A DNA stretch of 64,000 nucleotides from Gemmatimonadota bacterium (GCA_027623325.1 JAQBXY010000006.1:1-64000); one strand, 5' to 3'. Positions 1,930 through 15,930 are shown, counted from the stretch's first letter. The notes: generated by a model not told the origin, from the letters alone. Numbers and translations: made by a program.

Positions 1930-3729
1930 GTGTCCCACTCCGCAAAGTCACGCATCGTTCGCCGTTCCAGGTCCTCCCTGCTCGTTGCGCTGCTGATCTG
2001 GGGCTGCAGCAAGACGGTCGTAGCGCCAGACCCCGATCCGGAGACGGGCTCGATCGCGGTATCCGTTGCGACGACGGGAGGTCCGGTCGACCCCGATGGC
2101 TACAGCGCCACGGTCGGATCGACGCAGCAGGCCCTGCCCCTCAATGGCAGTGTCACATTCACGGGCGTCGCGGTGGGGTCGGCGTCAGTGACCCTCGGTG
2201 GCCTGGCGTCCAACTGCACCGTAACCGGAGCCAACCCTCAGTCCGCAACGGTGACGGCGAACGCCACGACGACAGTGACCTTCTCTTTTGCGTGCGCCCG
2301 CATTTCGGGCCCGATGACACTCCTCGCGACCGACCGTGAAGGCACGGTCTACGTCATCGACGAAACGACCGGGGAGGCGACGACTCTGTTCGTTCCCACG
2401 ACCGCCAGTGCCGGGGGAGATCAGGTCGCGATCGGGGTAATCAGCTCCATGGCCTACTCTTGGACCACCGAGGGCTGGTGGCTCGGCTTCGGTGGACGGA
2501 GCGTGTGCTTCGGATGCCTCCACACGCTCGACCCGGCGACGGGCAGGTCAACCCTACTCTCCGACCCGAGCCCCACGATTCGTGCCGTGGCCGGTCTGGC
2601 GGTGCACCCGACCACGGGCAAGATCTGCACGACAGAGGCGGACGGGAGCGACGGGCTCTTCGAGTTGAATGCAGTGACCGGAGCGCTTTCGACGGTGGCC
2701 CCGATCGCCGGGGAGCCCAGCAGCGCAAAGGGCCTGACGTTCTCGAACGCCGGCCTGCTCTACATCGGCGGCGACGACAAGCTCCTGACGTTCGACATCG
2801 CAAACGGGGTCGCGACGAATCTCGGCGTTCCCGTCATGACTGGCTTCCCTGCGGGTGTAACGCGGTCCTCACTACTCTCGATGACGACCCGTGAAAGCGA
2901 CGGCGTCATCTTCGCCATCACCCGTACAGGCCGGTCCGACCCGGCCTTCCTCGCGACCGTCAACCCCACCACCGGGGAGCTGACGTACGTCGGAGAAAGG
3001 CCAGAACTCCTGGACGGGCTCGCGTTCATCCCGACTCGCTTCATTGAGCAGGTAGCTCCGTCCGATGCGTCTCGAATCGCGTTCTCCAGCAACCGTGCCG
3101 GGAACTGGGACGTGTTCACCATGGACCCGCACGGAGGCAACCTCATCCAGGTCACCGACGACGCTGCGTTGGACGCGAGCCCCACGATCTCCCCGGATCG
3201 CACGAAGGTCATCTTCGCTTCAGACCGAGACGGCAACTCAGAGCTGTACGTGAAGAACTCCGACGGGTCGGGAGTAGCGACCCGCCTCACGATCACCCCC
3301 GACGCGGAATGGGACGCGAACTACTCGCCGAACGGCTCACGGATCGCGTTCACATTCGAGCCGGTCGGGTCGGCAAATTGGGACCTCTACTCGATGGCCA
3401 CGAACGGATCGGACCTCGTACAGCTGACCGACACCCCCGAGTGGGACGCCAACCCCGATTGGTCACCGGACGGGTTGCGAATCGCCTTCGAATCCCGCAT
3501 GGGCGGAGGCGATTGGGAGATCTATACATCGGACGCGACCACACTTGGCGTGCCGCTCCGCTTGACCCAGAACCAGGGCGTCAATGCCGATGCCGAACTG
3601 GTCGCCCGATGGGACCAAGATCGTCTTCGCTCGAGGCCGCGACGGGGGTCGAACCGGCGACGACGAGATCTACATCATGAATGCGAACGGGACCGACATC
3701 CGGCCCATCAGCAACCATGCGGCCAATGA
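1930..3729 (+). CDS. PD40/TolB-like beta-propeller lipoprotein, C-terminus frameshifted
   Basis: Starting from GTG 1930 the product has an n-region rich in Arg, a hydrophobic stretch and a lipobox LIWGC, so it is probably an outer-membrane or periplasmic lipoprotein. An Ig-like/PEGA-like stretch follows, with repeated Thr-rich strands and one Cys pair, then a propeller. The second half has at least four PD40 blades of the type SRIAFSSNRAGNWDVFTMD, as in TolB-type proteins and dipeptidyl-peptidase IV propellers. Near 3596 the frame is lost. Reading one base later gives a perfect continuation (NWSPDGTKIVFA, then DDEIYIMNANGTD, ending NDDEIDWR and TAG at 3749-3751), whereas the nominal frame gives Arg-rich nonsense to 3729. 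This is either a recent frameshift or a sequencing error. A longer start at 1780 is possible but would bury the signal peptide. Confidence 0.75.
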   Translation: MSHSAKSRIVRRSRSSLLVALLIWGCSKTVVAPDPDPETGSIAVSVATTGGPVDPDGYSATVGSTQQALPLNGSVTFTGVAVGSASVTLGGLASNCTVTGANPQSATVTANATTTVTFSFACARISGPMTLLATDREGTVYVIDETTGEATTLFVPTTASAGGDQVAIGVISSMAYSWTTEGWWLGFGGRSVCFGCLHTLDPATGRSTLLSDPSPTIRAVAGLAVHPTTGKICTTEADGSDGLFELNAVTGALSTVAPIAGEPSSAKGLTFSNAGLLYIGGDDKLLTFDIANGVATNLGVPVMTGFPAGVTRSSLLSMTTRESDGVIFAITRTGRSDPAFLATVNPTTGELTYVGERPELLDGLAFIPTRFIEQVAPSDASRIAFSSNRAGNWDVFTMDPHGGNLIQVTDDAALDASPTISPDRTKVIFASDRDGNSELYVKNSDGSGVATRLTITPDAEWDANYSPNGSRIAFTFEPVGSANWDLYSMATNGSDLVQLTDTPEWDANPDWSPDGLRIAFESRMGGGDWEIYTSDATTLGVPLRLTQNQGVNADAELVARWDQDRLRSRPRRGSNRRRRDLHHECERDRHPAHQQPCGQ

Positions 3730-3758
3730 CGACGAGATCGACTGGCGGTAGCCGATCC

Positions 3759-4496
3759 ATGAAGCGACCTCGCTCGCCGAGTCGGCGTGACCGGGCCTCC
3801 CTGAAGGCATTCCTGGGTCGCTCCGAGCGGCCCGAAGACATGTTGTCGTATGGCGAAATGCATGGATTCCTGTTCACGATCGCCAGCGCGCCAGAGCTCG
3901 TACCTCCGTCCGAGTGGTTCCACGAAGTCTTCGGTAGCGAAGAGCCCGGCTTCGCGGACCAAGACGAAGCCCAGCGCATATTCACGGCGGTGACGGGTGT
4001 CTACAACGACATCGTCCACCAGGTGCTCTCGGGGACCGCCGACCTACCCGCCGACTGTGCCCTCCGCAGAGACGTGATGGCGAATTTCGACGACGACGCG
4101 CCAGTGGCGGCCTGGTGCCGAGGCTTCAGGCACGGGCACTTCTGGCTGGAGGAGAGCTGGAACGAGCTACTTCCCGAAGAGATGCAGGACGAGCTCGCCG
4201 CCATCGTCTTCTCGTTGGCGTTCTTCAGCGAGAAGTCCATTGCGACAGCGGTGATCGAGGACGCGACTGCCCCCGACGCGTCCGTGGAAAGACTTGCCGA
4301 GGGCCTGCGAGCGGAGTTTCCACAGACGATGAAAGCCTACGCTCGCCTGGGAAGGATCCTCTACGAGGCGGGTCTCGCGGAGGAAGAGGAAGGACTCGTG
4401 CCGTCGACGGTGGAGGTGGTCCTTGGCCGAAACGACCCATGTCTTTGCGGCAGCGGCCGAAAGTTCAAGAAATGCTGCGGGCGGAGCGTGCACTGA
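3759..4496 (+). CDS. UPF0149 (YecA/YgfB-like) protein with C-terminal SEC-C zinc motif
   Basis: This 245-residue protein has the UPF0149 helical domain (about residues 20-185; landmark GEMHGFLFTIASAP, then WCRGFRHGHFW) and ends in a SEC-C motif, NDPCLCGSGRKFKKCCG. SEC-C motifs bind zinc, as in SecA and YecA, and are thought to help contact ribosomes or SecA-like partners. The ATG at 3759 is preferred because it lies only 7 bases after the repaired stop of the PD40 gene (3751) and removes an Arg/Thr-rich extension that overlaps that gene. The two may be co-transcribed, but no functional link is evident. The role of UPF0149 proteins is not settled. Confidence 0.85.
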   Translation: MKRPRSPSRRDRASLKAFLGRSERPEDMLSYGEMHGFLFTIASAPELVPPSEWFHEVFGSEEPGFADQDEAQRIFTAVTGVYNDIVHQVLSGTADLPADCALRRDVMANFDDDAPVAAWCRGFRHGHFWLEESWNELLPEEMQDELAAIVFSLAFFSEKSIATAVIEDATAPDASVERLAEGLRAEFPQTMKAYARLGRILYEAGLAEEEEGLVPSTVEVVLGRNDPCLCGSGRKFKKCCGRSVH

Positions 4497-4797
4497 GCAC
4501 ACCCCGCCCGTAGCCGCTACATCGGCGAGCGCAAATCGGAGTTCGGCGATAGCCGAAACAGGTTACGTCCGGCTCCTCGGCCTCGCACTCGAAACGCGGA
4601 TCGAAGTGGAAGCGATTGTCGCGCCCTGAGAAGGCCCGGCGCACGGAGAGCGTCAGCCCGACGACCGTGGTCGCGGCATCTTCGACGACGAACGGACAAG
4701 ACGAATACCGCCGTATCACAGTCCACTTTCGGCTTGACGATCAGCACTCCTCCTACTTCATTTTGTTTAACGACTTAATTTTGTTTAGGGGGTGGTG
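4497..4797. other. intergenic region with no convincing gene
   Basis: About 300 bases between the SEC-C gene and padR. Short open frames exist on the minus strand (4465-4719 and 4517-4747), but none has a recognisable domain, signal peptide or ribosome-binding site. The last 40 bases are distinctly AT-rich and hold the padR regulatory repeats described separately. Confidence 0.5.
4760..4787 (+). promoter_or_regulatory. ATTTTGTTTA direct repeat upstream of padR
   Basis: The 10-mer ATTTTGTTTA occurs at 4760-4769 and again at 4778-4787, 18 bases apart, in a local AT-rich island immediately before the padR start. PadR proteins commonly bind short repeats over their own promoter, so autoregulation is a reasonable inference. 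No good sigma-70 -35/-10 pair is visible across it. Confidence 0.45.
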
Positions 4798-5130
4798 ATG
4801 ACGAAGGGTGCACACTTGGGCGAGTTTGAGGAGATCGTCCTCCTGGCGGCAGCGCGGTCCGACGGATACGGATCTGCGATTCACGGTGAGATCCTCGCAA
4901 CGACCACCCGCGATGTTTCGATCCCGTCCGTGTATGTGACACTGACGAGGTTGGAGAAGAAGGGACTTGTCGAGTCGTCGGTCGCGATTTCGGGCGGTGA
5001 TCGCGGAGGACGCCCCATGAAGGTGTTCACAGTAACCGAGGCAGGGGTTCGCCAGCTTCAGGCGTCGAGAATGCTGAAGGCCCGGTTATGGGAGGGACTC
5101 GAATTCGACCCTCTCGCGGCGGAGGAATGA
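4798..5130 (+). CDS. PadR-family transcriptional regulator
   Basis: This small (110-residue) winged-helix repressor has a typical PadR layout: LGEFEEIVLLA start helix, SIPSVYVTLTRLEKKGLV recognition helix and wing with GGRPMKVFTVTEAG. GTG codons at 4792 and 4795 precede the ATG at 4798. The ATG is chosen because TAGGGGG lies 7 bases upstream of it. The stop is one base before the ADOP permease start, and GGAGG inside the padR end serves as that gene's ribosome-binding site. PadR-ADOP pairs of this kind are common in Acidobacteriota and Gemmatimonadota, where the regulator probably controls the neighbouring permease in response to an unknown ligand. Confidence 0.9.
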   Translation: MTKGAHLGEFEEIVLLAAARSDGYGSAIHGEILATTTRDVSIPSVYVTLTRLEKKGLVESSVAISGGDRGGRPMKVFTVTEAGVRQLQASRMLKARLWEGLEFDPLAAEE

Positions 5131-5131
5131 C

Positions 5132-7828
5132 ATGGTCCGTCCACCTCCGTTGGCTGTGCGGCTCCTTGAATGGCGCGTACCCGAGCAGGTCAGGACTTAC
5201 CTACTCGGAGATCTAGAAGAGACGTTCCGGAGCAAAGCGAACGAGTCGCCCATCCGTGCCAGCCTCTGGTATTGGAGGCAGGCTCTTTCCGCGCTCTTCG
5301 CTCCGCTTCCTGGCACTGTAGGGGTTGAGCGTGGTGGTCCGAATCCCGGTTTGTTGAGAGACACACGACACGCCATTCGCGCGCTGAAGCGACATCCCAC
5401 TCAGAGCCTCGCCGCCGTTCTGACCCTGGGCTTGGGTGTCGGCGTCGTGGGCACGGCATTCAGCATCTTGTGGGGCACCGTGCTGGCCGGGCTCCCCTTC
5501 GAAGATCCCGACCGCCTCGTTCACTTCGAGCGGGCGGCGTTGGAAGACGGCCGGAATTCTCTTGCGGTGACTCCGCACGACTACGTGGCATGGTCGGATG
5601 CACAGCGCTCGTTCGAAGCGTTGGGTGCCTATGTCGAGGCCACCGCCTTGATGTCGAACGATCAGGCCCCTCCCGATCGGTACGTCGGTGTGAGGATGTC
5701 GGCCAGCTCGTTCGAACTCCTGCGTGTGCAACCCGCATTGGGGCGTGGATTCTCTCAGGAGGACGAAAGCCCCGGCGCACCTCAGGTCATCCTTCTCAGC
5801 GATCGCCTGTGGCGGAGTCGTTTCGCCGCTGACGCGGGCGTGGTGGGGAGAACAGTCGACATCAATGGACTCCCGACCACTGTCGTCGGTGTGATGCCGG
5901 AGCGATTCGGTTTCCCCATTGCGGAGGAGTTTTGGCTCCCGCTCCGTCTCGATTTCTCTACGATCGAACGTGGCTCGGGCCGCCTAGACGTCTTCGGCCG
6001 GCTGGCCGGTGATCAGGAGCTGGCCTCGGCACACGACGAATTCTCGAGGATCACAGGAGCGTTGGCTGAGGCGTATCCAGAGACCAACCGAGGCATCACG
6101 GCTCAGCTCCGCAGTTTCTCAGATGAGTACGTGGGCGACGAATTCGCCAACACCGTATATCGACTTGTCGCAGGTGCACTCTTGGTCCTGCTGATCTGCT
6201 GCGCCAACGTGGCCAATCTGTTGCTCATTCGGGGTGTCCGACGTAGGCGAGAACTCGCCGTGCGCATGTCTCTCGGAGCGACCCATGGCCTGATCGTGCG
6301 CCAGCTCCTTACCGAGTCGTTTGTCCTGGCAGCGCTTGGAGGATTGATCGGCATCGGGGTAGCGAGCCTGGGCGTGAGTTGGTTCAATCGAGTTGGGACT
6401 CAGGCCGGTGTGTTCGACCTGCCGCACGGCTCGGACTCGCTCTTCTGGTGGGACGTGTCGTTGGACGGACCGGTGATGCTGGCGGTCCTCGCGGCCGCGG
6501 CCCTCACCGCTGTGCTCGCAGGTGCCGCACCCTCGATGAGGATCGCTCGCTCCACTCACCTGCTACGAGGCGGGCGGGCAGGCAATGCTCTGGCCGGTGG
6601 CGGCCGAGTGACCTCCGCTCTAGTTGTCGTTCAGCTCACGCTGACCGGCGCCCTGACAGTTGCCGCTGCGTTCGTCGCGAAGAGTGTGTGGAACGTTGCG
6701 GGAGCAGACGCCGGATTCGCGACAGAGGCGGTTGTGGTCACACGAGTCGATCTGCCGGTCGGTCGCTACGGAGGGAACGGTTCCGGGGATCACTCGGCGA
6801 GACTGCGCTTCGTCAGTGTGTTGCTCGACGAACTCGATGCAGATCCTGCTGTGGTTGCCGCGGCCGTCACGTCCGATGTGCCTACGGATCTCCCGATCAC
6901 GCAGGACTTCCGGATCGATGGGGACGGGGTTGGTCCCGACGTCGAGCGCGAAGTGGGTGTCGTATCTGTGACGGCGTCCTACTTCGATGTCTTCGGGGTC
7001 GATCCGACCGATGGTCGTGTGTTCGGGCCAGGGGATGGAGAAGGCGGGGCGCCGGTCACACTCGTGAACGAAACGTTCGCTCGGCTCTACCTGTCCGGTC
7101 GTAGCGCGGTTGGAAGTCGTGTGCGCCTTGGCCCGATCGACAGCGGGGAGCCATGGCGGACCGTTGTTGGTGTCGTCCCAGATCTTTGGGCGCGACCTGG
7201 GGAGCCTTTACGAGAAGCGGGCGTCTACGTTCCGCTTGAGCAGAGTGCTGGCACCGACCCGACGCTCACGCTTGGTGTTCTCGGCTTGAGGTATCCGACC
7301 GTCGCTGTACAACTATGCCCGGGAAGTGTGAACGTGTCTGATGTACTTCGGGCGGCCGTATACCGGGTAGACGGTGCCGTACCGGTTCGGCGCGTCCAGA
7401 CCATGTCGGACTTCGTGGGTCAGCGTATGGGGCGATACCAAGTGTGGGGGCGCTTCTATCTCTGTTTTTCGGCCCTCGCGCTGTTGCTCGTAGCCGTGGG
7501 CGTCTACGGAGTGCTCTCGTTCGGTGTGCTTACTCGTACCGGTGAGATCGGTGTCCGTCGTGCCCTTGGGGCTTCCCAGGGATCAGTGCAGCGAGAGATC
7601 CTCCGCGGCGCGGTGCGTCAACTTGGAATCGGGATCGCTGCGGGAGTAGCCCTCGGCGTGGTACTGGTCAGAGGGCTGACGAGCGTGCTCTACGGGGTGG
7701 AAACGAACGATATCAGCGTGTTCGTCGGCGCGGCGTTGTTGCTGGGCACGGTCGGGCTGCTCGCGAGTTGGTTACCCGCCCGGCGAGCTGCGCGGATCGA
7801 CCCGTTGGAAGCCATCCGCACCGAGTAG
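5132..7828 (+). CDS. ADOP-type ABC transporter permease (MacB/FtsX duplicated permease)
   Basis: The 898-residue membrane protein starts with a cytosolic permease-prefix domain (about 1-75). A first membrane helix and MacB-like periplasmic domain follow, then an FtsX permease domain (around residues 340-460, with LVLLICCANVANLLLIRGVRRRRELAVR). A second periplasmic domain and a second FtsX domain (about 770-898, with LLLVAVGVYGVLSFGVLTRTGEIGVRRALGAS) complete it, ending in the characteristic ARIDPLEAIRTE. Length and domain order match acidobacterial duplicated orphan permeases, which are MacB-like but usually lack an adjacent ATPase, as here. MacB relatives transduce ATP hydrolysis to the periplasm to move peptides, toxins or lipoproteins; the substrate here is unknown. 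It is translationally coupled to padR. Confidence 0.9.
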   Translation: MVRPPPLAVRLLEWRVPEQVRTYLLGDLEETFRSKANESPIRASLWYWRQALSALFAPLPGTVGVERGGPNPGLLRDTRHAIRALKRHPTQSLAAVLTLGLGVGVVGTAFSILWGTVLAGLPFEDPDRLVHFERAALEDGRNSLAVTPHDYVAWSDAQRSFEALGAYVEATALMSNDQAPPDRYVGVRMSASSFELLRVQPALGRGFSQEDESPGAPQVILLSDRLWRSRFAADAGVVGRTVDINGLPTTVVGVMPERFGFPIAEEFWLPLRLDFSTIERGSGRLDVFGRLAGDQELASAHDEFSRITGALAEAYPETNRGITAQLRSFSDEYVGDEFANTVYRLVAGALLVLLICCANVANLLLIRGVRRRRELAVRMSLGATHGLIVRQLLTESFVLAALGGLIGIGVASLGVSWFNRVGTQAGVFDLPHGSDSLFWWDVSLDGPVMLAVLAAAALTAVLAGAAPSMRIARSTHLLRGGRAGNALAGGGRVTSALVVVQLTLTGALTVAAAFVAKSVWNVAGADAGFATEAVVVTRVDLPVGRYGGNGSGDHSARLRFVSVLLDELDADPAVVAAAVTSDVPTDLPITQDFRIDGDGVGPDVEREVGVVSVTASYFDVFGVDPTDGRVFGPGDGEGGAPVTLVNETFARLYLSGRSAVGSRVRLGPIDSGEPWRTVVGVVPDLWARPGEPLREAGVYVPLEQSAGTDPTLTLGVLGLRYPTVAVQLCPGSVNVSDVLRAAVYRVDGAVPVRRVQTMSDFVGQRMGRYQVWGRFYLCFSALALLLVAVGVYGVLSFGVLTRTGEIGVRRALGASQGSVQREILRGAVRQLGIGIAAGVALGVVLVRGLTSVLYGVETNDISVFVGAALLLGTVGLLASWLPARRAARIDPLEAIRTE

Positions 7829-8094: not shown

Positions 8095-9021
8095 TCAGCT
8101 TCTTCTCCCCCTGCAGTAGTCCCGCAGCCCTCCCAAACCATGTACGACATGGACGCCGGCAGGGAGCGAGTTCAAGAGTGAGGAGGCGCGCCCTCCGACC
8201 ACCACATCGATGGATGTGTTCAACCCAGCTCTGATCTCTCGGATCGCCTGCCCGGTTTCAGACACCGTGTCGATGTTCACCGTGCTGATCGCCACCGCTG
8301 CTGCTCCAACCGATTCAGCCGCCGCCGCGATCTCCGCCGCCGGCAGGTCGATACCTAAATAGGTCACTACCCAACCCTCCAGGATCGCAACGGTGGAGAC
8401 GAGTCGCGCTCCAAGACCGTGGCGCTCTCCCTGGACGGTCGCCACAACCAGCCTGAGGCCTCCCTCCACCCGCGACGGCTCCGCCAGTCGCTCCAGAACC
8501 CTCTCAGTAACTGCGCTCGCGAGATGCTCCTGGGCGGGGGTCGAATCACCAGTCACCCAGGTGCTACCTACTCGAACCAGGAACGGCGCGACGACCTCGT
8601 CGAGAAACGTGTCGGCACCCAAGGTGAGCGCGGAGTGCCACAGCACGCGCTCCATGGCTAGCCCGTCCAAACTCAAGGTGGCCGTGAAGGCCTCATCTAC
8701 ACATCGAGAGGGAGCTCGCCCAGCCGCGGCACCGAAGGGAGATGCTGCCGCCGAGGCCCGATCCTCTCGAACCAGGTCGGTCACCTCTCGCTCTGACAGC
8801 GCTGCGACCATGCTGATGGGCCTCCCGGCCTCCGTCAGCCTTCTGAGGACAGTCAGTCGTTCGAGGTCGTGGTCCGAGTAGAGACGCTGTCCCGCGTCCG
8901 AACGCCCCGGCTTCACGGCATCGTAACGGCGCTCCCAGGCGCGAAGCGTCGCCGGGGTCAGCCCCGTGCGCTGGGAGACGACCCGAATTGGGTGCCGGGG
9001 CGTGGTGTCGGTGTTGTTCAT
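8095..9021 (-). CDS. MerR/B12-binding regulator, CarH/LitR-type photoreceptor
   Basis: This 308-residue protein has an N-terminal MerR winged helix (residues 12-78; VSQRTGLTPATLRAWERRY), a four-helix bundle (about 105-185) and a cobalamin-binding Rossmann domain (188-300). Known CarH features are present: Trp155 followed nine residues later by Glu165-His166 (the W-x9-EH motif of the adenosylcobalamin pocket), the lower-ligand motif ERHGLG with His201, then ISTVN and VVGG. CarH binds operators as a dark tetramer with adenosylcobalamin and is released by light. The residue after Trp155, His132 in Thermus CarH, is Val here. ATG 9021 is chosen because the longer TTG start at 9057 falls inside a -35 box. 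The divergent lipid operon is its likely target. Confidence 0.85.
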   Translation of the reverse strand: MNNTDTTPRHPIRVVSQRTGLTPATLRAWERRYDAVKPGRSDAGQRLYSDHDLERLTVLRRLTEAGRPISMVAALSEREVTDLVREDRASAAASPFGAAAGRAPSRCVDEAFTATLSLDGLAMERVLWHSALTLGADTFLDEVVAPFLVRVGSTWVTGDSTPAQEHLASAVTERVLERLAEPSRVEGGLRLVVATVQGERHGLGARLVSTVAILEGWVVTYLGIDLPAAEIAAAAESVGAAAVAISTVNIDTVSETGQAIREIRAGLNTSIDVVVGGRASSLLNSLPAGVHVVHGLGGLRDYCRGRRS

Positions 9022-9028
9022 GACCGCA

Positions 9029-9057
9029 AGAATACCGCCTTGTGTATGCCGTGTCAA
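9029..9057 (-). promoter_or_regulatory. sigma-70-like promoter for the CarH-like gene, probably leaderless
   Basis: Read on the minus strand: TTGACA (9057-9052), 17-base spacer, TATTCT (9034-9029). The ATG at 9021 begins 7 bases after the -10 box, about where transcription would start, so the message may be leaderless. No Shine-Dalgarno sequence fits otherwise (AAGGCGG is about 16 bases from the ATG). Confidence 0.55.
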
Positions 9058-9059
9058 AC
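9038..9059. promoter_or_regulatory. left arm of inverted repeat, candidate CarH operator
   Basis: On the minus strand the sequence reads GACAC, GGC, ATACACAAGG. A matching copy in the opposite orientation (GACAC, TCGTT, ATACAAAGG) lies at 9118-9141. This arm covers the -35 box and spacer of the regulator promoter, which is where a MerR-type repressor would block RNA polymerase. Confidence 0.45.
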
Positions 9060-9087
9060 AAATTACGATATCCTATTGCACTTATGC

Positions 9088-9116
9088 TTGACACGTTGGT
9101 CGAGTGGCGTCATAAT
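9088..9116 (+). promoter_or_regulatory. sigma-70-like promoter pointing toward the desaturase operon
   Basis: TTGACA at 9088-9093, a 17-base spacer, then CATAAT at 9111-9116: a near-consensus housekeeping promoter. It faces the desaturase gene about 200 bases away, with the 9118-9141 repeat arm right at the expected transcription start. Confidence 0.55.
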
Positions 9117-9117
9117 G

Positions 9118-9141
9118 TTGGACACTCGTTATACAAAGGGG
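9118..9141. promoter_or_regulatory. right arm of inverted repeat, candidate CarH operator
   Basis: TTGGACACTCGTTATACAAAGG, mirrored by the arm at 9038-9059 with about 60 bases between them. It sits directly after the -10 box of the plus-strand promoter, a position suited to repression. Assignment to the CarH-like protein is inferred from symmetry and divergent layout only. Confidence 0.45.
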
Positions 9142-9245
9142 CGGACGTGCTGGCCTCAAACGGGGTCATTCACATCATCGACACCGTAATGCTCCCGCCG
9201 GCAATTCATTAATATTAGCAAGAGATTCACCGCTCATATGAAGCT

Positions 9246-9283
9246 GCGGCGGTCGGCAACGCGCCGGCCGCCGCCCCCTTTTT
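9246..9283 (+). terminator. intrinsic terminator between promoter and desaturase gene
   Basis: GCGGCGGTCGGC (9246-9257) pairs with GCCGGCCGCCGC (9263-9274) around an AACGC loop: 12 pairs with one G-T wobble. CCCC and five T follow. It probably ended the lost fasciclin gene, but it now lies in the leader of any transcript from the 9088 promoter. Confidence 0.75.
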
Positions 9284-9320
9284 CCATCCGCACGTTCCAC
9301 GGCCCGAGTTACCATCCCAA

Positions 9321-10211
9321 ATGAGACGCATCAGAATGGCCGGCTTCGTCAGGAAACTGATCCTCTGGTTCGACACGTCCGCTCCGGATGTCGCCGTGAC
9401 GACGGACAATCAGACGGTTGACTGGGTGAGGGTAGTTCCGTTCATCGGCATGCACCTCGCTTGCCTCGGCGTTTTCTGGGTAGGGTGGAGTTGGACCGCG
9501 GTCGGCATTGCCGCCGGCCTTTACGCGGTCCGCATGTTCGCGATCACAGGCTTCTACCATCGGTATTTTTCGCACCGAACGTTCAAGACCTCGCGGGCCG
9601 GTCAGTTCATCTTCGCATTCATTGCCGCGAGTTCGGTGCAGCGGGGTCCCCTCTGGTGGGCGGCGCATCACCGAAAGCACCATCGCCACTCGGATACTGA
9701 GCTCGATGTGCACTCGCCCGGGGAACACGGTTTCTGGTGGGCCCACATGGGGTGGATTACCGCGCCGTCGAACTTCCCCACTGACTTTCGCGAGGTTCGC
9801 GACCTCGCGAAGTACCCCGAATTGAGGTTCCTCGACCGGTTCGACATCCTGGCACCGGTCGTGCTCGCGGTCGCGCTCTTCGTGACCGGCGGTGCACAGG
9901 TGCTGGTGTGGGGCTTCTTCATCAGCACCGTCGTGCTCTTCCACTGCACGTGTCTCATCAACTCCCTCGCTCACCAATTCGGGACACAGCCCTACGAGAC
10001 GGGTGACGAAAGCCGGAACAGCCTCATTCTCGCCCTGCTCACCTTCGGCGAGGGGTGGCACAACAATCACCACAAGTATCCAGGCTCCGCCCGCCAGGGC
10101 TTCTTCTGGTGGGAAATCGACATCACCTATTACGGCCTGAAGGTCCTCGAGCACCTCGGGATCATTCGAGACCTCCGGCAGCCTCCCCGCCGCCTGTTGG
10201 AGCGGACCTGA
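9321..10211 (+). CDS. acyl-CoA (delta-9 type) fatty-acid desaturase
   Basis: This 296-residue membrane di-iron desaturase has all three histidine boxes: H80-RYFS-H85, H117-RK-H120-H121 and H247-NN-H250-H251, plus the auxiliary NSLAH at about 213-217. Four hydrophobic segments fit the usual topology with the boxes facing the cytosol. It introduces a double bond into acyl chains using O2 and an electron donor, giving unsaturated substrate for the cyclopropane/methyl-type enzymes encoded downstream. Starts at 9321 and 9336 are both possible. Its stop is one base before the next ATG, so it heads the overlapping lipid operon. It lies downstream of a terminator-like hairpin, so an extra promoter or antitermination may exist. 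Confidence 0.9.
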   Translation: MRRIRMAGFVRKLILWFDTSAPDVAVTTDNQTVDWVRVVPFIGMHLACLGVFWVGWSWTAVGIAAGLYAVRMFAITGFYHRYFSHRTFKTSRAGQFIFAFIAASSVQRGPLWWAAHHRKHHRHSDTELDVHSPGEHGFWWAHMGWITAPSNFPTDFREVRDLAKYPELRFLDRFDILAPVVLAVALFVTGGAQVLVWGFFISTVVLFHCTCLINSLAHQFGTQPYETGDESRNSLILALLTFGEGWHNNHHKYPGSARQGFFWWEIDITYYGLKVLEHLGIIRDLRQPPRRLLERT

Positions 10212-10212
10212 C

Positions 10213-11442
10213 ATGCGCATCGCCATCGTCGGGGGCGGCGTCTCAGGCCTGGTAGCGGCCCACCTGCTGCACCCCCTACATGAGATCACCGTCTTCGAGG
10301 CTCGGGACAGAATCGGGGGGCACGTCAACACGGTCCAAGTCGAGACCGAAGACGGAGCGTGGAGCGTGGACACCGGCTTTATCGTCTACAACGAAGCGAA
10401 CTATCCGAACTTCACCCGCCTCTTAAAGAAGTTGTCCGTTCGCACCCAAAGCTCGGATATGAGTTTCAGCGTGAGGTGTGACCGGACCGGCTTGGAGTAC
10501 AACGGGTCTACGCTACGCCAACTCTTCGTGCAGAAAAAAAACCTGGTCAGCCCGGGCTACTACCGGATGATCCGAGACATCCTGCGCTTCAACGCCGAGG
10601 CCCCCGCCGCGATCGCCAATGGCTCTGCGGGCATGTCGATGGGGGAGTACCTCGAACACGGGAAGTACTCCTCCCGCCTCGCGGATCACTACCTCGTGCC
10701 CATGGGCTCGGCGCTGTGGTCCATGCCTCGCGGTCAGGTCCTCGCGATGCCAGCGGAGTTCTTCGTCCGCTTCTTCGACAACCACGGCATGCTCAAGGTG
10801 GATGGTCGCCCCCATTGGCGAGTCATTGAAGGTGGCTCCGCGAGTTACCTGGGGCCGCTCGTCGAGCCTTTCAGAGAGAGGGTCCGGCTTTCGACCCCCG
10901 TGACGGCGATCTCGCGAGACCTCGACGGCGTAACCGTGAACGGAGAGTCGTTCGATGAGGTCGTGTTGTCATGCCACGCGGACCAGGCATTGGCAATGCT
11001 CTCCGACCCGAGTCCGTCGGAGTCGGAGATCCTCACTGCACTGCCTTTCCAGAAGAACCGCGTCGTGCTGCATACCGACACGGCGGTGCTTCCGCGCCGG
11101 CACAAGGCCTGGGGTGCTTGGAACTATCACATTCGCCGAGAAGAGAACGAGCCCGTCACCGTCACCTACGACATGAACATCCTGCAGTCGTTGTCTGCAC
11201 CGGAGACCTTCTGCGTGACGCTGAACCCGCCGGAGTGGATCGACCCTGCCCGCATTCTCTACGAGACGTCTTTCGCCCATCCGGTCTTCACCACCGCGGG
11301 GACCCACGCCCAACGGAGACGCCCGGAGATCAGCGGTGTGAATCGCACCCACTACTGCGGAGCCTATTGGGGCTTCGGCTTCCACGAAGACGGCGTCAGA
11401 AGCGCCGTCGACATCGCTCAGGCATTCGGGGCGGAGCTGTGA
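10213..11442 (+). CDS. FAD-dependent amine-oxidase-fold oxidoreductase (COG2907 type)
   Basis: This 409-residue flavoprotein has an N-terminal dinucleotide-binding motif [11 protein letters not shown] (residues 3-13), the [16 protein letters not shown] contact and the C-terminal [11 protein letters not shown] helix. It belongs to the predicted NAD/FAD-binding proteins that recur beside DUF1365 and Cfa-like genes in light- or singlet-oxygen-regulated loci of proteobacteria. A role in oxidising or desaturating a modified fatty acid is plausible but unproven. The stop overlaps the next start (GTGA), indicating translational coupling. Confidence 0.85.
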
Positions 11443-12197
11443 ACAGCGGCCTGTACGTCGGCACCGTCCGGCATCGCCGATTCGAGCCCAGAGAGCACAC
11501 CTTCTCGTACTCGATCTTTCAGTTGTATCTCGACCTAGCCGAAGTGCCTGAGGTCTTCGACGGTCACTTGCTCTGGTCGGCCCGCAGGCCAGCCCCTGCT
11601 TGGTTCCGCCGTTCCGATTACCTGGGCGATGCCAACGAACCCCTCGACGAAGCGGTACGGAACGAAGCACACCGACAGACAGGGATTCGCCCTGCGGGGC
11701 CGGTCCGGATGCTGACGCACCTCCGATACCTCGGGTTGGTGATGAACCCGGTGACGTTCTACTACTGCTTCGACACCAGCGGGACACGCGTCGAGGTCAT
11801 TCTCGCCGAGATCACGAACACGCCCTGGAACGAGCGCCACGTCTACGCGCTCGCCGCCGGCTCGGCTGAAGTTGAAGCGACCGGCAGGCGCCACCAGGTC
11901 GGCAAACGGTTCCACGTCTCTCCCTTCATGGACATGGACCATACGTACGACTGGCGCTTCAGCGAACCGGGTGAATCGCTGAACGTGCATATGGAAAATC
12001 ACTCGAACGGTCGACGTGTCTTCGACGCCACGCTCTCTCTGCGCCGCCGGGAGATCACGGGCGGCTCGCTCGCCCTCGCGCTCGCGCGTTTCCCGTGGAT
12101 GACGGCCAAGGTGGCCAGCGGCATCTACTGGCAGGCTGCCCGCCTGTGGTTGAAGCGCACTCCCTTCTTCACTCACCCACAAGAGCGATCCGCATGA
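11439..12197 (+). CDS. DUF1365 family protein
   Basis: A 252-residue cytoplasmic protein of the DUF1365 (COG3496) family; landmarks are [13 protein letters not shown] at the start, [17 protein letters not shown] (about 95-111) and the [10 protein letters not shown] segment. Its biochemical role is unknown. The family almost always neighbours COG2907 flavoproteins and Cfa-like methyltransferases, as here. GTG 11439 is chosen because it overlaps the preceding stop and begins exactly at the family's N-terminus; a longer open frame back to 10971 is only the flavoprotein read out of frame. The end overlaps the next ATG by four bases. Confidence 0.88.
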
Positions 12198-13429
12198 ACG
12201 CCATCAACAGACTCGCCCGCCGCGCGGTGAACGCACGCCTTCGCCTCATTCGCGAAGGTCGGCTCAGCGTGCACGAAGGGGACAGCATCACGGTCTTTGG
12301 ATCCGGTAATGGTCCAGCAGTGACGCTCACGATTCACGATTCGCGCTTCTTTTCGACGCTCGCCTTCGGCGGTCACTTGGGGGCCGCCGAGTCCTATGTT
12401 GCCGGTGAGTGGGACACCGACGACCTGACGACACTCGTCCAGTTGCTCGTCCGTAACCGTGACGTCCTGGACTCTCTCGAGACCGGCTTCGCTCGACTCG
12501 TCCGGCCGGCCCGCGCTCTTCTTCACGCGATCAACCGGAACACGAGGCGTGGCAGCAAGAAGAACATCATCGCCCACTACGACCTCGGCAACGAGCTCTT
12601 CGAAGCATTTTTGGACGAAACAATGACGTACTCCGCCGGGATCTTCGCCACGCCGGAGACTTCGATGCGTGACGCGTCCATCGAGAAGTACGACCGCCTC
12701 TGCCGAAAGCTCGAACTCACTTCAGCGGATCATGTGCTGGAGATCGGAACCGGATGGGGCGGCTTCGCCATCCACGCGGCGTCAAGCTACGGGTGCCGTG
12801 TCACGACCACCACGATCTCGGACGAGCAATACGCGCTCGCGAAGGTCAGAGTCGAAAACGCCGGACTGAGCCATCGGGTGACGCTGCTTCAGAAAGACTA
12901 TCGGGACCTGGAAGGGACCTTCGACAAGCTCGTGTCTATCGAGATGATCGAGGCCGTCGGGCATCAGTACTTCGAGGAATATTTCCGCCAATGCGCTCGG
13001 CTCCTCTCCCCCACGGGCTTGGCCGCGATTCAGGCCATCACGATCCAAGACCGCCTCTACGAGTCGGCACGGAAGGAGGTCGACTTCATCAAGAGGTACA
13101 TCTTCCCAGGCAGTTGCATCCCCTCGATGTCCGTACTCGCGACGGCAGCGGCGCCTACGGACCTGCGCCTCGTACACCTGGAAGACATCACGCCGCACTA
13201 CGCCGAGACCCTCCGCCGGTGGAGATCGAGGTTCCACGACAACTGGCATAGGATCGCGGCGCACGGATACGGTGAGGACTTCAGACGTCTGTGGGACTTC
13301 TACCTCGCGTACTGTGAAGGCGGGTTCAACGAGGCGGTGATTGGCAACGTGCAGCTCGTGTTCGCCAAACCGAAGGCCTCCACTTCTCTGGTCGGGAGAG
13401 TGCTACAGCGCGCCGAGACCGCCGCATGA
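12194..13429 (+). CDS. cyclopropane-fatty-acid synthase-type methyltransferase
   Basis: This 411-residue protein has the full Cfa layout: an N-terminal acyl-chain/sterol-carrier-like domain (1-115), [23 protein letters not shown] (about 125-147), the SAM site [11 protein letters not shown] (181-191), [10 protein letters not shown] with the conserved Glu, [12 protein letters not shown] and a C-terminal [10 protein letters not shown] region. Cfa enzymes add a methylene or methyl from S-adenosylmethionine across a phospholipid double bond. In these loci the product may be a cyclopropane, methyl-branched or furan-type acid; the sequence alone does not decide. The start overlaps the DUF1365 stop (ATGA). 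The gene before supplies no SAM-binding function, so this is the first methyltransferase of the operon. Confidence 0.9.
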
Positions 13430-13451
13430 CCAACATTGAACTGAGCGTACC

Positions 13452-14465
13452 ATGATCGCATCCACAGCAATCGCGCTCGCGGAGCGCGGACTCGTTCCCC
13501 TCCCAGGACTTCGGCTCGGAATTCGGAGCCTGCTCAAACAGCGCCTCAGAGGCAGCGCCTCAGAGATGAGTGTCGAGGCGTTTGCAAAAGTTCTCGCCAA
13601 GAGTCCCATCGCCCTGGATACGGACAAGGCGAACGAGCAGCACTACGAACTGCCGCCTGAGTTCTTCTCCCTCGTCCTGGGGGCGCACCTGAAATACAGC
13701 GGCGCATACTGGCCCCAGGGTACGACCAGCCTGGACGCGGCCGAGCTTCGCATGCTCGAGTTGAGTTGCAAACGCGCCAAACTCGAGGACGGCCAGGACA
13801 TCTTGGAACTCGGGTGTGGCTGGGGTTCGCTCACGTTGTACATGGCCCACATGTACCCCAACAGCCGAATCACCGCAGTGTCGAACTCGGCGCCGCAGCG
13901 CCGCTACATCGAGGCGCGGGCACCTAACAACGTCACGGTGGTGACCGCAGACATGAACCACTTCGCCCCCGAGCAGACGTTCGATCGGATCGTGAGCGTG
14001 GAGATGTTCGAACACATGCGGAACTACGAGGAGCTCTTGGGGCGAATACGATCTTGGCTGCGCCCGGAGGGCCGGCTCTTCGTGCACGTATTCTGCCACA
14101 AGGAGCACGCGTACCCTTTCGAGGTGGAGGGCGAGGACAACTGGATGGGTCGGTACTTCTTCACCGGCGGAATCATGCCGTCGTTCGGGCTTCTGCGGCA
14201 TTTTGATCAAGACATGGCCGTGGAAGAACACTGGCCGGTCGACGGAAGCCACTACAGCAAGACCGCGCGGGCTTGGCGCAAGAATCTCGAAGACCGACGC
14301 CCGGAAGTGATGGAGGTCCTCCGTGCGACATACGGTCATCAGGCGGACACATGGTATCACCGCTGGCGCCTCTTCTTTCTGTCCTGCGAGGAACTGTTCG
14401 GGTACGACGACGGCAAGGAGTGGCTCGTGGGGCATTATCGATTTGCGCCGACGCCCGTCGAATGA
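13452..14465 (+). CDS. second, shorter CFA-like SAM-dependent methyltransferase
   Basis: A 337-residue protein with NEQHYELPPEFF (61-72), the SAM site ILELGCGWGSLTLYMA (117-132), SVEMFEHMRNYEELL and a long C-terminal helical part ending HYRFAPTPVE. The family is the coclaurine-N-methyltransferase-like branch of the Cfa superfamily, and it lacks the N-terminal lipid domain of the preceding Cfa. It could act on the same lipid at a different step or on another acceptor. It lies 22 bases after the Cfa stop, and its own stop overlaps the SRPBCC start, so it belongs to the operon. Confidence 0.85.
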   Translation: MIASTAIALAERGLVPLPGLRLGIRSLLKQRLRGSASEMSVEAFAKVLAKSPIALDTDKANEQHYELPPEFFSLVLGAHLKYSGAYWPQGTTSLDAAELRMLELSCKRAKLEDGQDILELGCGWGSLTLYMAHMYPNSRITAVSNSAPQRRYIEARAPNNVTVVTADMNHFAPEQTFDRIVSVEMFEHMRNYEELLGRIRSWLRPEGRLFVHVFCHKEHAYPFEVEGEDNWMGRYFFTGGIMPSFGLLRHFDQDMAVEEHWPVDGSHYSKTARAWRKNLEDRRPEVMEVLRATYGHQADTWYHRWRLFFLSCEELFGYDDGKEWLVGHYRFAPTPVE

Positions 14466-14938
14466 CGGCCCACGTCCTCGAACGGAGTCAGGTCGTCCCG
14501 GGCAATATGGATGCCGTCTTCGGTTTCTTCGAAGACCCGTGGAATCTCGAGACGCTGACTCCGTCCTGGCTTCACTTCAACGTCCACGCGACGTCGGATC
14601 GCCGCGTTCGGCTCGGCACGGAAATCGACTACAAGCTCCGCTGGCACATCTTCCCGATGACGTGGCGCTCGCGGATCTCAGAGTACGTCCCAGGGGCGTG
14701 CTTCGCGGACGAGATGCTGCAGGGCCCATACTCGAGTTGGTACCACCGCCACCTCTTCCAGGAGGTGAGTGCGGGGGTCGAGATCGTGGACATCGTGAAA
14801 TACGAGCTACCCTTCGGCCCGCTCGGGCGACTCGCGCATGCGGCCCTGATCCGTGATCAACTCGAGGGCATCTTCGACTATCGAGCAGTCGTGGTCGACC
14901 GGCTCTTCACGGACGCACGATTAGAGATCAAGGGATGA
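14462..14938 (+). CDS. SRPBCC (START-like) lipid/ligand-binding protein
   Basis: This 158-residue protein of the COG4276 type has LERSQVVPGNMDAVFGFFEDPWNLETLTP at its start, a central pair of strands, and FDYRAVVVDRLF at the end, typical of the helix-grip fold with a large hydrophobic cavity. Members recur in the same lipid loci and may carry or present a modified acyl chain. ATG 14462 overlaps the preceding stop by four bases; the 63-residue longer frame is antecedent coding sequence in another frame. It is the last gene of the plus-strand operon. Confidence 0.85.
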   Translation: MTAHVLERSQVVPGNMDAVFGFFEDPWNLETLTPSWLHFNVHATSDRRVRLGTEIDYKLRWHIFPMTWRSRISEYVPGACFADEMLQGPYSSWYHRHLFQEVSAGVEIVDIVKYELPFGPLGRLAHAALIRDQLEGIFDYRAVVVDRLFTDARLEIKG

Positions 14939-14957
14939 GCCCGCCGAGCCAGCGGGT

Positions 14958-15057
14958 CTAGAACTCGATACTGAAGCCGAAGGTCGGTAGCAAGCCGGCC
15001 CATCGGTCATCTCCTGCCTGTCGTTGGGCGAGGTAGCCTACTTGTTGCAGCGCTTCC
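14958..15057 (-). pseudogene. outer-membrane beta-barrel C-terminal remnant
   Basis: Immediately downstream of the DUF1295 stop the minus strand reads WAGLLPTFGFSIEF and TAG (14958-14960). Alternating residues and a terminal Phe are the hallmark of the last strand of an outer-membrane barrel protein. Only about 34 codons remain. Confidence 0.5.
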
Positions 15058-15930
15058 TTAGAGGGGTCGCCGCATGACCAGCTCCGGCGTCCGATCACGA
15101 TACGCCCGGTACTCGGGATCCTCCCCCCACTTCGCTTCGGCTCGCTCCTCGAGCAGCGGAATCCCGCTCACCCGCGTGAGCAGAACGTAGACGAATAGGG
15201 GCGATACGAGGGTGACGTATTGCCACCCGGCCAGCTCCGGATACGCGATGATCGCCACACCGATCCACAGCACGATTTCGCCGAAGTAGTTGGGGTGGCG
15301 CGACCACGCCCACAGCCCGCTCTGAATGAAGCGCCCCCGGTTTCCGGGATCGGCGCGGAAGCGGTTCTTCTGGCGATCGGCGACGACCTCGATGGCGAAG
15401 CCCACGGCCCAGATCAGGGCGCCGACGAGCGCGGCTGCGCCCAGCGGGCGCGTGTCCTCGCTCGTGATCGCGGCCAGCGCGCACGCCAGGGTGAGGAAGA
15501 CCCACAAACCCTGGAGCGTCCAGGCGCCCAGAAAGCGCGGAAAGCTCGTCTTCAACTCATCGAAGCGACCATCTTGGCCCTCCCGGTTGATCCGCGAGAA
15601 CAAGAAGGTCCCCAACCGAATGGCCCAGACCAGAACCAGAGCAGCCAGCAGGAGCGAGCGCGGATCCGTGGCGGCTGTCGCCAAGAGCGCGGTCCCGATG
15701 ACCGTGACGTAGGTGAGGCTCCCAGCCAGGTCGAAGAAGCGTTCTGTCTGGGCGAGGTACGAAGGCACGAAGACGACCCAGTTGATGACGAACGCGAGGA
15801 GCCCGCACAGGGCGAAGACCGGTACGCCACCTGCGGTGACGCCCCCCTGGCTTCCCGCCCATGCAACGGCTGCGCCCACCACCACGATTGCGGGGCTACC
15901 GATCAAGGCACGTTGTTCGGGTTGGTTCAT
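15058..15930 (-). CDS. DUF1295 / steroid 5-alpha-reductase-like membrane protein
   Basis: This 290-residue integral membrane protein has about eight hydrophobic segments and the diagnostic C-terminal motif SRHPNYFGEI (about residues 223-232), shared with isoprenylcysteine methyltransferases and steroid reductases. DUF1295 (COG3752) proteins commonly accompany the COG2907/DUF1365/Cfa genes, and a reductase acting on a membrane lipid is the usual guess. The ATG at 15930 has GAGG 8 bases upstream; the longer start at 16014 lacks this. It faces the lipid operon tail-to-tail and probably works with it despite being on the other strand. Confidence 0.85.
   Translation of the reverse strand: MNQPEQRALIGSPAIVVVGAAVAWAGSQGGVTAGGVPVFALCGLLAFVINWVVFVPSYLAQTERFFDLAGSLTYVTVIGTALLATAATDPRSLLLAALVLVWAIRLGTFLFSRINREGQDGRFDELKTSFPRFLGAWTLQGLWVFLTLACALAAITSEDTRPLGAAALVGALIWAVGFAIEVVADRQKNRFRADPGNRGRFIQSGLWAWSRHPNYFGEIVLWIGVAIIAYPELAGWQYVTLVSPLFVYVLLTRVSGIPLLEERAEAKWGEDPEYRAYRDRTPELVMRRPL

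Follow-up and report, generated by a model that had tools for sequence, protein, structure and literature searches.

A probable CarH-controlled furan fatty acid operon in a Gemmatimonadota bacterium

The furan fatty acids (FuFAs) of Rhodobacter scavenge singlet oxygen and are also needed for turnover of ChrR. The trio UfaM, UfaD and UfaO of Rhodobacter and Rhodopseudomonas suffices to turn phospholipid-bound cis-vaccenate into a monomethyl FuFA, and FufM supplies the second methyl group to yield a dimethyl-FuFA (PMC7380195). UfaO is a DUF1365 protein, and the adjacent Rhodopseudomonas palustris genes RPA2571-2569 encode these enzymes in D-O-M order (PMC7380195). In Pseudomonas, operons controlled by the class II LitR proteins PplR and PmlR hold ufaM, phrB and an FAD oxidoreductase, so there is a published precedent for a light-regulated ufaM operon under a LitR-family protein (PMC9758184). 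The CarH proteins of Thermus, Bacillus megaterium and Myxococcus switch carotenoid genes, and the published CarH unit is an 11-bp sequence, nAnnTnnACAn, that occurs in tandem (PMC8156234).

The window analysed here, a 64,000-nucleotide stretch of DNA from a Gemmatimonadota bacterium (GCA_027623325.1, JAQBXY010000006.1:1-64000), contains a locus that is probably a CarH-controlled FuFA operon (Table 1). Six tightly packed plus-strand genes are divergent from a minus-strand MerR-type gene (8095-14938); three of the operon junctions overlap by 4 bp (GTGA or ATGA) and at the remaining two the genes are 1 and 22 bp apart, so it is likely that the six genes share a single transcript. The original prediction had placed all of these genes where they were found and had proposed a search for the same gene order in Gemmatimonadota genomes; the identical order was seen again in dozens of genomes when loci were compared, so the layout is far from chance.

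Table 1. Features of the locus, with positions counted from the first nucleotide of the window.
Feature	Position	Strand	Evidence or remark
CarH-like MerR regulator, B12-binding, predicted light-sensing domain	8095..9021	-	ATG at 9021; Pfam, Thermus CarH likeness, motifs
carH promoter, TTGACA-N17-TATTCT	9029..9057	-	10/12 consensus matches; 0.2 sites expected in region
Predicted CarH operator 1, TTGTTTGACAC GGCATACACAA	9040..9061	-	tandem 11-bp repeats over carH -35
Operon-side promoter, TTGACA-N17-CATAAT	9088..9116	+	11/12 consensus matches
Predicted CarH operator 2, ATGTTGGACAC TCGTTATACAA	9115..9136	+	tandem 11-bp repeats overlapping -10 and start region
Fasciclin-domain gene remnant, last 21 codons and stop	9147..9212	+	VLASNGVIHIIDTVMLPPAIH and stop match C-terminus of intact L034 gene
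Intrinsic terminator between promoter and operon	9246..9274	+	12-pair stem, then CCCCTTTTT; MFE -28.4 kcal/mol, z -3.1
Des, SCD-type fatty acyl desaturase, probably delta-9	9321..10211	+	PF00487, 75 bits; later start 9336 possible
UfaD-like flavoprotein, COG2907 type	10213..11442	+	PF01593 / NAD_binding_8
UfaO-like DUF1365 protein	11439..12197	+	GTG start; PF07103, 281 bits (cut-off 25)
UfaM-like SAM methyltransferase, would be annotated Cfa	12194..13429	+	CMAS, 268 bits
FufM-like SAM methyltransferase, coclaurine-N-methyltransferase clade	13452..14465	+	CMAS family, 141 bits
START/SRPBCC-fold protein, probably lipid-binding or cyclase helper	14462..14938	+	AlphaFold2 pLDDT 91
DUF1295 protein, convergent neighbour, membership uncertain	15058..15930	-	PF06966, 218 bits; tail to tail with operon

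Compared with the Rhodobacter and Rhodopseudomonas pathway, the enzyme families are alike and the D-O-M adjacency is that of RPA2571-2569 (PMC7380195), but the window has the FufM-like, desaturase and SRPBCC genes in one operon and a CarH-like regulator in place of RpoE-ChrR. The two methyltransferase types, which had been thought new, correspond to R. palustris UfaM and FufM (PMC7380195). The Pseudomonas systems likewise pair a light-controlled ufaM operon with a regulator of the LitR/CarH family, although light control is predicted for the window and the class II LitR proteins have a partial B12 domain and act together with LOV proteins, whereas the B12 domain encoded here is complete (PMC9758184). 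With the Thermus, B. megaterium and Myxococcus systems the locus shares a MerR-B12 protein, the W-x9-EH motif and tandem 11-bp repeats over a sigma-70 promoter (PMC8156234), but its target is a lipid operon in a genome without phytoene synthase rather than a set of carotenoid genes. A cluster on an Acinetobacter haemolyticus plasmid (CP085288 81601-87726) has the same order, Des-UfaD-UfaO-UfaM-DUF1295-FufM, but lacks CarH and CarH repeats, has DUF1295 inside, and is preceded by a lipocalin gene and followed by a histidine kinase gene. Desaturase-led ufa operons without CarH are also found in Gammaproteobacteria, so gene order alone is not new; the earlier view that a desaturase-led version is new was only partly right, as such versions occur on Acinetobacter plasmids, in Gammaproteobacteria and in Acidobacteriota.

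The domains of the regulator are those of CarH and class I LitR proteins (MerR, four-helix and Rossmann B12), with Pfam matches above cut-off to PF13411 (MerR_1, 2e-16), PF02310 (B12-binding, 1e-12) and PF02607 (B12-binding_2, 1e-5), and its best solved relative is Thermus CarH (5c8d/3whp). The predicted MerR-B12 regulator with W-x9-EH and ExHxxG motifs, divergent from the operon, was thus recovered in both domains and motifs. Its score against the NCBIfam CarH equivalog NF052513 is 106.7 bits, compared with a cut-off of 400, so the protein is filed as a CarH-like family member and not as that equivalog. Light-responsive B12 domains are told from others by the signature GxxW, EH, GxxH and GxxxP (PMC11796333); all four elements are present in the regulator as GSTW-x9-EH, GERHGLG and GIDLP (SignatureFinder elements), and most of them are kept in nearly all operon-linked CarH homologues. 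The genome also encodes a cobalamin adenosyltransferase. From these features we infer that the regulator is a CarH-type light/B12 switch, its light response being predicted. A clear B12-binding domain would also suit a repressor that controls the lipid operon by sensing cobalamin status instead of light, but we give this reading very little credence, given the four light-response motifs (PMC11796333) and a target that other bacteria use against photo-oxidative stress (PMC6852236, PMC7074977). No cobalamin riboswitch or other Rfam RNA was found in the window at the gathering threshold. A defence-system reading of the locus was rejected, as it produced only weak matches, to the MerR protein and the flavoprotein.

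In the operon divergent from this regulator, homologues of UfaD, UfaO and UfaM occur together with the D-O-M order conserved, and the UfaD-like gene directly precedes that for the DUF1365 protein in nearly all loci compared. Intermediate arrangements also exist: in the Rhodobacterales locus L078, ECF-ChrR genes are divergent from UfaD, UfaO and MFS genes, which is the layout described for RSP1091-1087 beside rpoE-chrR, and the window proteins are 39% (UfaD) and 27% (UfaO) identical to their L078 counterparts. Based on family homology, gene order and such intermediates, the operon reads as a FuFA pathway. Among solved structures Des is closest to acyl-CoA desaturase 1 (4ymk, E 1e-24), and the histidine boxes of the two align; that Des is the sole desaturase was rejected, as the assembly has four PF00487 genes. 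The AlphaFold2 model of the UfaO-like protein (pLDDT 90) has only weak barrel matches, to OlmO spirocyclase, nitrobindin and FABP-like proteins (at best Z 6.9 and Foldseek E 0.008), too little to name a fold or cofactor.

The FufM-like protein scores 249 bits to coclaurine N-methyltransferase (6gkv) versus 114 to E. coli Cfa, and groups with the former at 100/100 in the tree. We take Arabidopsis AT4G33110 to be a member of the same coclaurine-N-methyltransferase-like group. R. palustris FufM is 38% identical to this plant protein (PMC10940516). The last gene of the operon encodes a protein with no Pfam or NCBIfam match, whose AlphaFold2 model has a helix-grip fold and Foldseek matches to TcmN aromatase/cyclase, TTHA0849 and PYL/Bet v 1-type proteins (E ~1e-6, down to 4e-7). 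This fold bears out the SRPBCC label that the gene had been given, and the modelled protein is probably a lipid-binding or cyclase helper. DUF1295 had been described as adjacent, and it is present, but it is convergent and its membership of the operon is unproven; a more distant DUF1295 is found inside the operon in many relatives.

A different set of products, methyl-branched or cyclopropane fatty acids with the DUF1365 and COG2907 proteins acting in branching or reduction, is suggested by the membership of both methyltransferases in the CMAS family, by the Cfa name that databases give them, and by the cyclopropane, methyl and methoxy products of other CMAS relatives. However, His240 and His266 (E. 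coli numbering), which are kept in the solved cyclopropane and mycolic acid synthases of E. coli, Lactobacillus, Aquifex and mycobacteria, are Ala and Gln in the UfaM-like protein. The three E. coli Cfa positions are replaced (G236E, H240A and H266Q) in this protein and in 74/74 relatives, and the UfaM-like proteins form their own clade (support 100/99), so a cyclopropane product is unlikely. In addition, UfaD, UfaO and UfaM together are the verified furan set (PMC7380195), and we consider synthesis of methyl-branched or cyclopropane fatty acids instead of furans to be improbable. The original prediction had left the product as methylated, cyclopropane or furan fatty acids; the loss of the Cfa histidines speaks against the cyclopropane option, and operator repeats, linkage in two phyla and pathway homology favour the furan.

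Between the regulator and the operon, two sigma-70 promoters stand back to back. The nearest relative, L034, has an equivalent carH promoter, and its operon-side counterpart is TTGACA-17-GATAAT. A scan for two adjacent 11-bp units, (nnnnTnnACAn)2, identified tandem repeats with T5 and ACA8-10 that overlap both promoters, two pairs in a 320-bp region compared with ~0.01 expected. Both predicted operators are kept in L034 with compatible changes: operator 1 is TTGTTTGACAC GGGCTGTACAG there, with T5 and ACA8-10 retained in both units, and operator 2 aligns as ATCTTGGACAC TCGTTGTACAA. Position 2, an A in the published consensus, is mostly another base in the predicted repeats. TTGACA alone matches one repeat unit; it does not explain a second unit exactly 11 bp away.

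When unique loci were considered, repeats were found upstream of the ufa operon in 21/25 cases with CarH within 10 kb and in 4/14 with CarH elsewhere in the genome. They were found before the operon in 0/8 Gemmatimonadota loci without CarH and in 0/20 loci of other phyla that themselves hold no CarH (0/28 for both groups). The association of repeats with CarH has a Fisher p of 4e-11, a value that is indicative only, as relatedness among the linked loci makes p-values overstate their independence; the background is 29 tandem repeat pairs per 1.28 Mb. Autoregulation of carH is not enough to explain the pattern, because in L047, L054 and L059 the CarH gene is found at the other end of the operon and the repeats nevertheless cover the -35 immediately upstream of the operon.

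The intergenic region additionally carries a remnant of a fasciclin gene and a terminator, neither of which appeared in the original prediction. In L039, L049 and L140, CarH and the operon are separated by a fasciclin gene (PF02469), which, judging from this position, probably heads the regulated unit in relatives. Fasciclin genes are part of the Rhodobacter photo-oxidative stress response (RSP_1409), and Azospirillum fasciclin genes are under RpoE-ChrR, as cited in PMC10949492. In the window, the remnant and a strong terminator split the promoter from Des, so transcription of the operon needs read-through or an unseen promoter. It could be that the lipid pathway is correctly assigned and CarH control has been lost or weakened here: CarH would have acted chiefly on the fasciclin gene, and deletion of that gene, which left the terminator in place, would have uncoupled the operon. 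The position of the terminator directly upstream of Des and the probable place of fasciclin at the head of the regulated unit agree with such a loss, but the repeats stand directly before the operon in fasciclin-free loci (L041, L044 and those of Acidobacteriota). In addition, no terminator-like site was found in the stretches scanned, from promoter or fasciclin to operon, in L034, L039, L048 and L049, and the operon genes here are all intact despite the terminator and the fasciclin deletion; we regard a loss or weakening of control as rather unlikely.

Control of the furan operon by CarH also agrees with how often the two parts occur together. In a sample of 395 Gemmatimonadota genomes, 53 have UfaO and 152 a CarH homologue; in 18 of the UfaO-bearing genomes, CarH and UfaO are no more than 10 kb apart, compared with ~0.4 expected. 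In Acidobacteriota, loci L101-L103, L106, L107 and L115 have CarH divergent from Des-UfaD-UfaO-UfaM. A second copy was rejected as a paralogue; it lies on contig C35, which shares 99.8% identity with genome G227 across 11 kb and is probably bin contamination. No match to the ChrR anti-sigma factor was found in the genome itself, nor any above cut-off in the 395 Gemmatimonadota genomes (0/395), with a positive Caulobacter control, and phytoene synthase was not found in the genome, so neither the Rhodobacter sensor nor the usual CarH target was found. Operator repeats, linkage in two phyla and pathway homology thus support the predicted arrangement, in which a light/B12 regulator of CarH type stands opposite a membrane-lipid operon.

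The computed evidence consists of gene content and order, homology, conservation of promoters and repeats, and statistical linkage; from it we infer a light response, catalytic steps, product and role. In the dark, CarH with AdoCbl would repress the operon; green, blue or UV light would cleave the Co-C bond, release CarH from DNA and allow transcription. Des would then make a cis double bond, probably delta-9, UfaM would put on a methyl group and move the double bond, UfaD would introduce a second double bond, UfaO would bring in O2-derived oxygen and close the furan ring, and FufM would attach the second methyl, while binding or presentation of the lipid may fall to the SRPBCC protein. The mono- and dimethyl-FuFA phospholipids formed by these steps would scavenge singlet oxygen. 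A delta-9 Des would lead to 7-series furans from 18:1 and 16:1, compared with 9M5/9D5 from vaccenate, so FuFAs of the 7M7/7D7 or 7M5/7D5 type are predicted if Des has this specificity.

The individual parts of this system are known, and the wiring of CarH to a furan operon is a new combination for which no description was found in the searchable literature; nor was any paper found there that deals, for Gemmatimonadota, with CarH and fatty acids or with furan fatty acids. It is plausible, and in our judgement about evenly balanced, that, in the Gemmatimonadota and Acidobacteriota, control of a self-sufficient dimethyl-furan pathway has passed from ChrR to a B12 photoreceptor, with all steps from desaturase through second methyl within one operon, allowing carotenoid-free cells to arm their membranes on light, before damage occurs. 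If this is true, the role of CarH would extend from carotenoids to membrane-lipid chemistry, and light would directly control FuFAs in two phyla from which we found no FuFA report. The two jobs proposed for FuFAs, singlet-oxygen scavenging and ChrR turnover, would also become separable: without ChrR, protection is the only role left to FuFAs, and its value could be tested alone. The operon would also provide a ready-made, light-switchable furan-lipid pathway, with new ring positions predicted if Des is a delta-9 enzyme.

The own assembly holds a second CarH-type cluster (L134), in which a CarH homolog, 55% identical, is divergent from the accompanying genes, the UfaD stub among them being reduced to ~61 residues, and tandem CarH repeats are present on both strands. 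This locus is a decayed sister cluster. The fasciclin gene of which the window keeps a remnant is still intact in related genomes (L034, L039, L049, L140), where CarH lies on one side of it and the operon on the other; proteobacterial photo-oxidative stress regulons likewise include fasciclin genes.

Another contig of this assembly, G000:C35 (L033, L135), is probably bin contamination, judging from its 99.8% sequence identity to genome G227 across 11 kb; in the lineage of C35 and G227, Des is cut down to an N-terminal remnant.

In several phyla (L090-L092, L102, L105, L107), a separate block near the ufa genes encodes DUF1295 plus FufM, which suggests that DUF1295 acts together with FufM. One furan fatty acid gene set (L073) is carried by a mobilizable plasmid.

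Features of the window and of compared loci
Feature	Location	Content
Fasciclin (PF02469) gene	window 9147-9212	remnant
UfaO (DUF1365)	window 11439-12194	predicted barrel-like fold
L134	own assembly, C59:26000-42000, at 3198-7476	CarH, fasciclin gene, UfaD stub, DUF1295
L073	Acinetobacter haemolyticus plasmid p4	Des-UfaD-UfaO-UfaM-DUF1295-FufM, with lipocalin and histidine kinase

The UfaO fold comes from a high-confidence predicted structure, and matches of this model in the Protein Data Bank (nitrobindin, OlmO spirocyclase, FABP-like) were weak throughout. The invariant residues of DUF1365/UfaO could help in looking for its cofactor.
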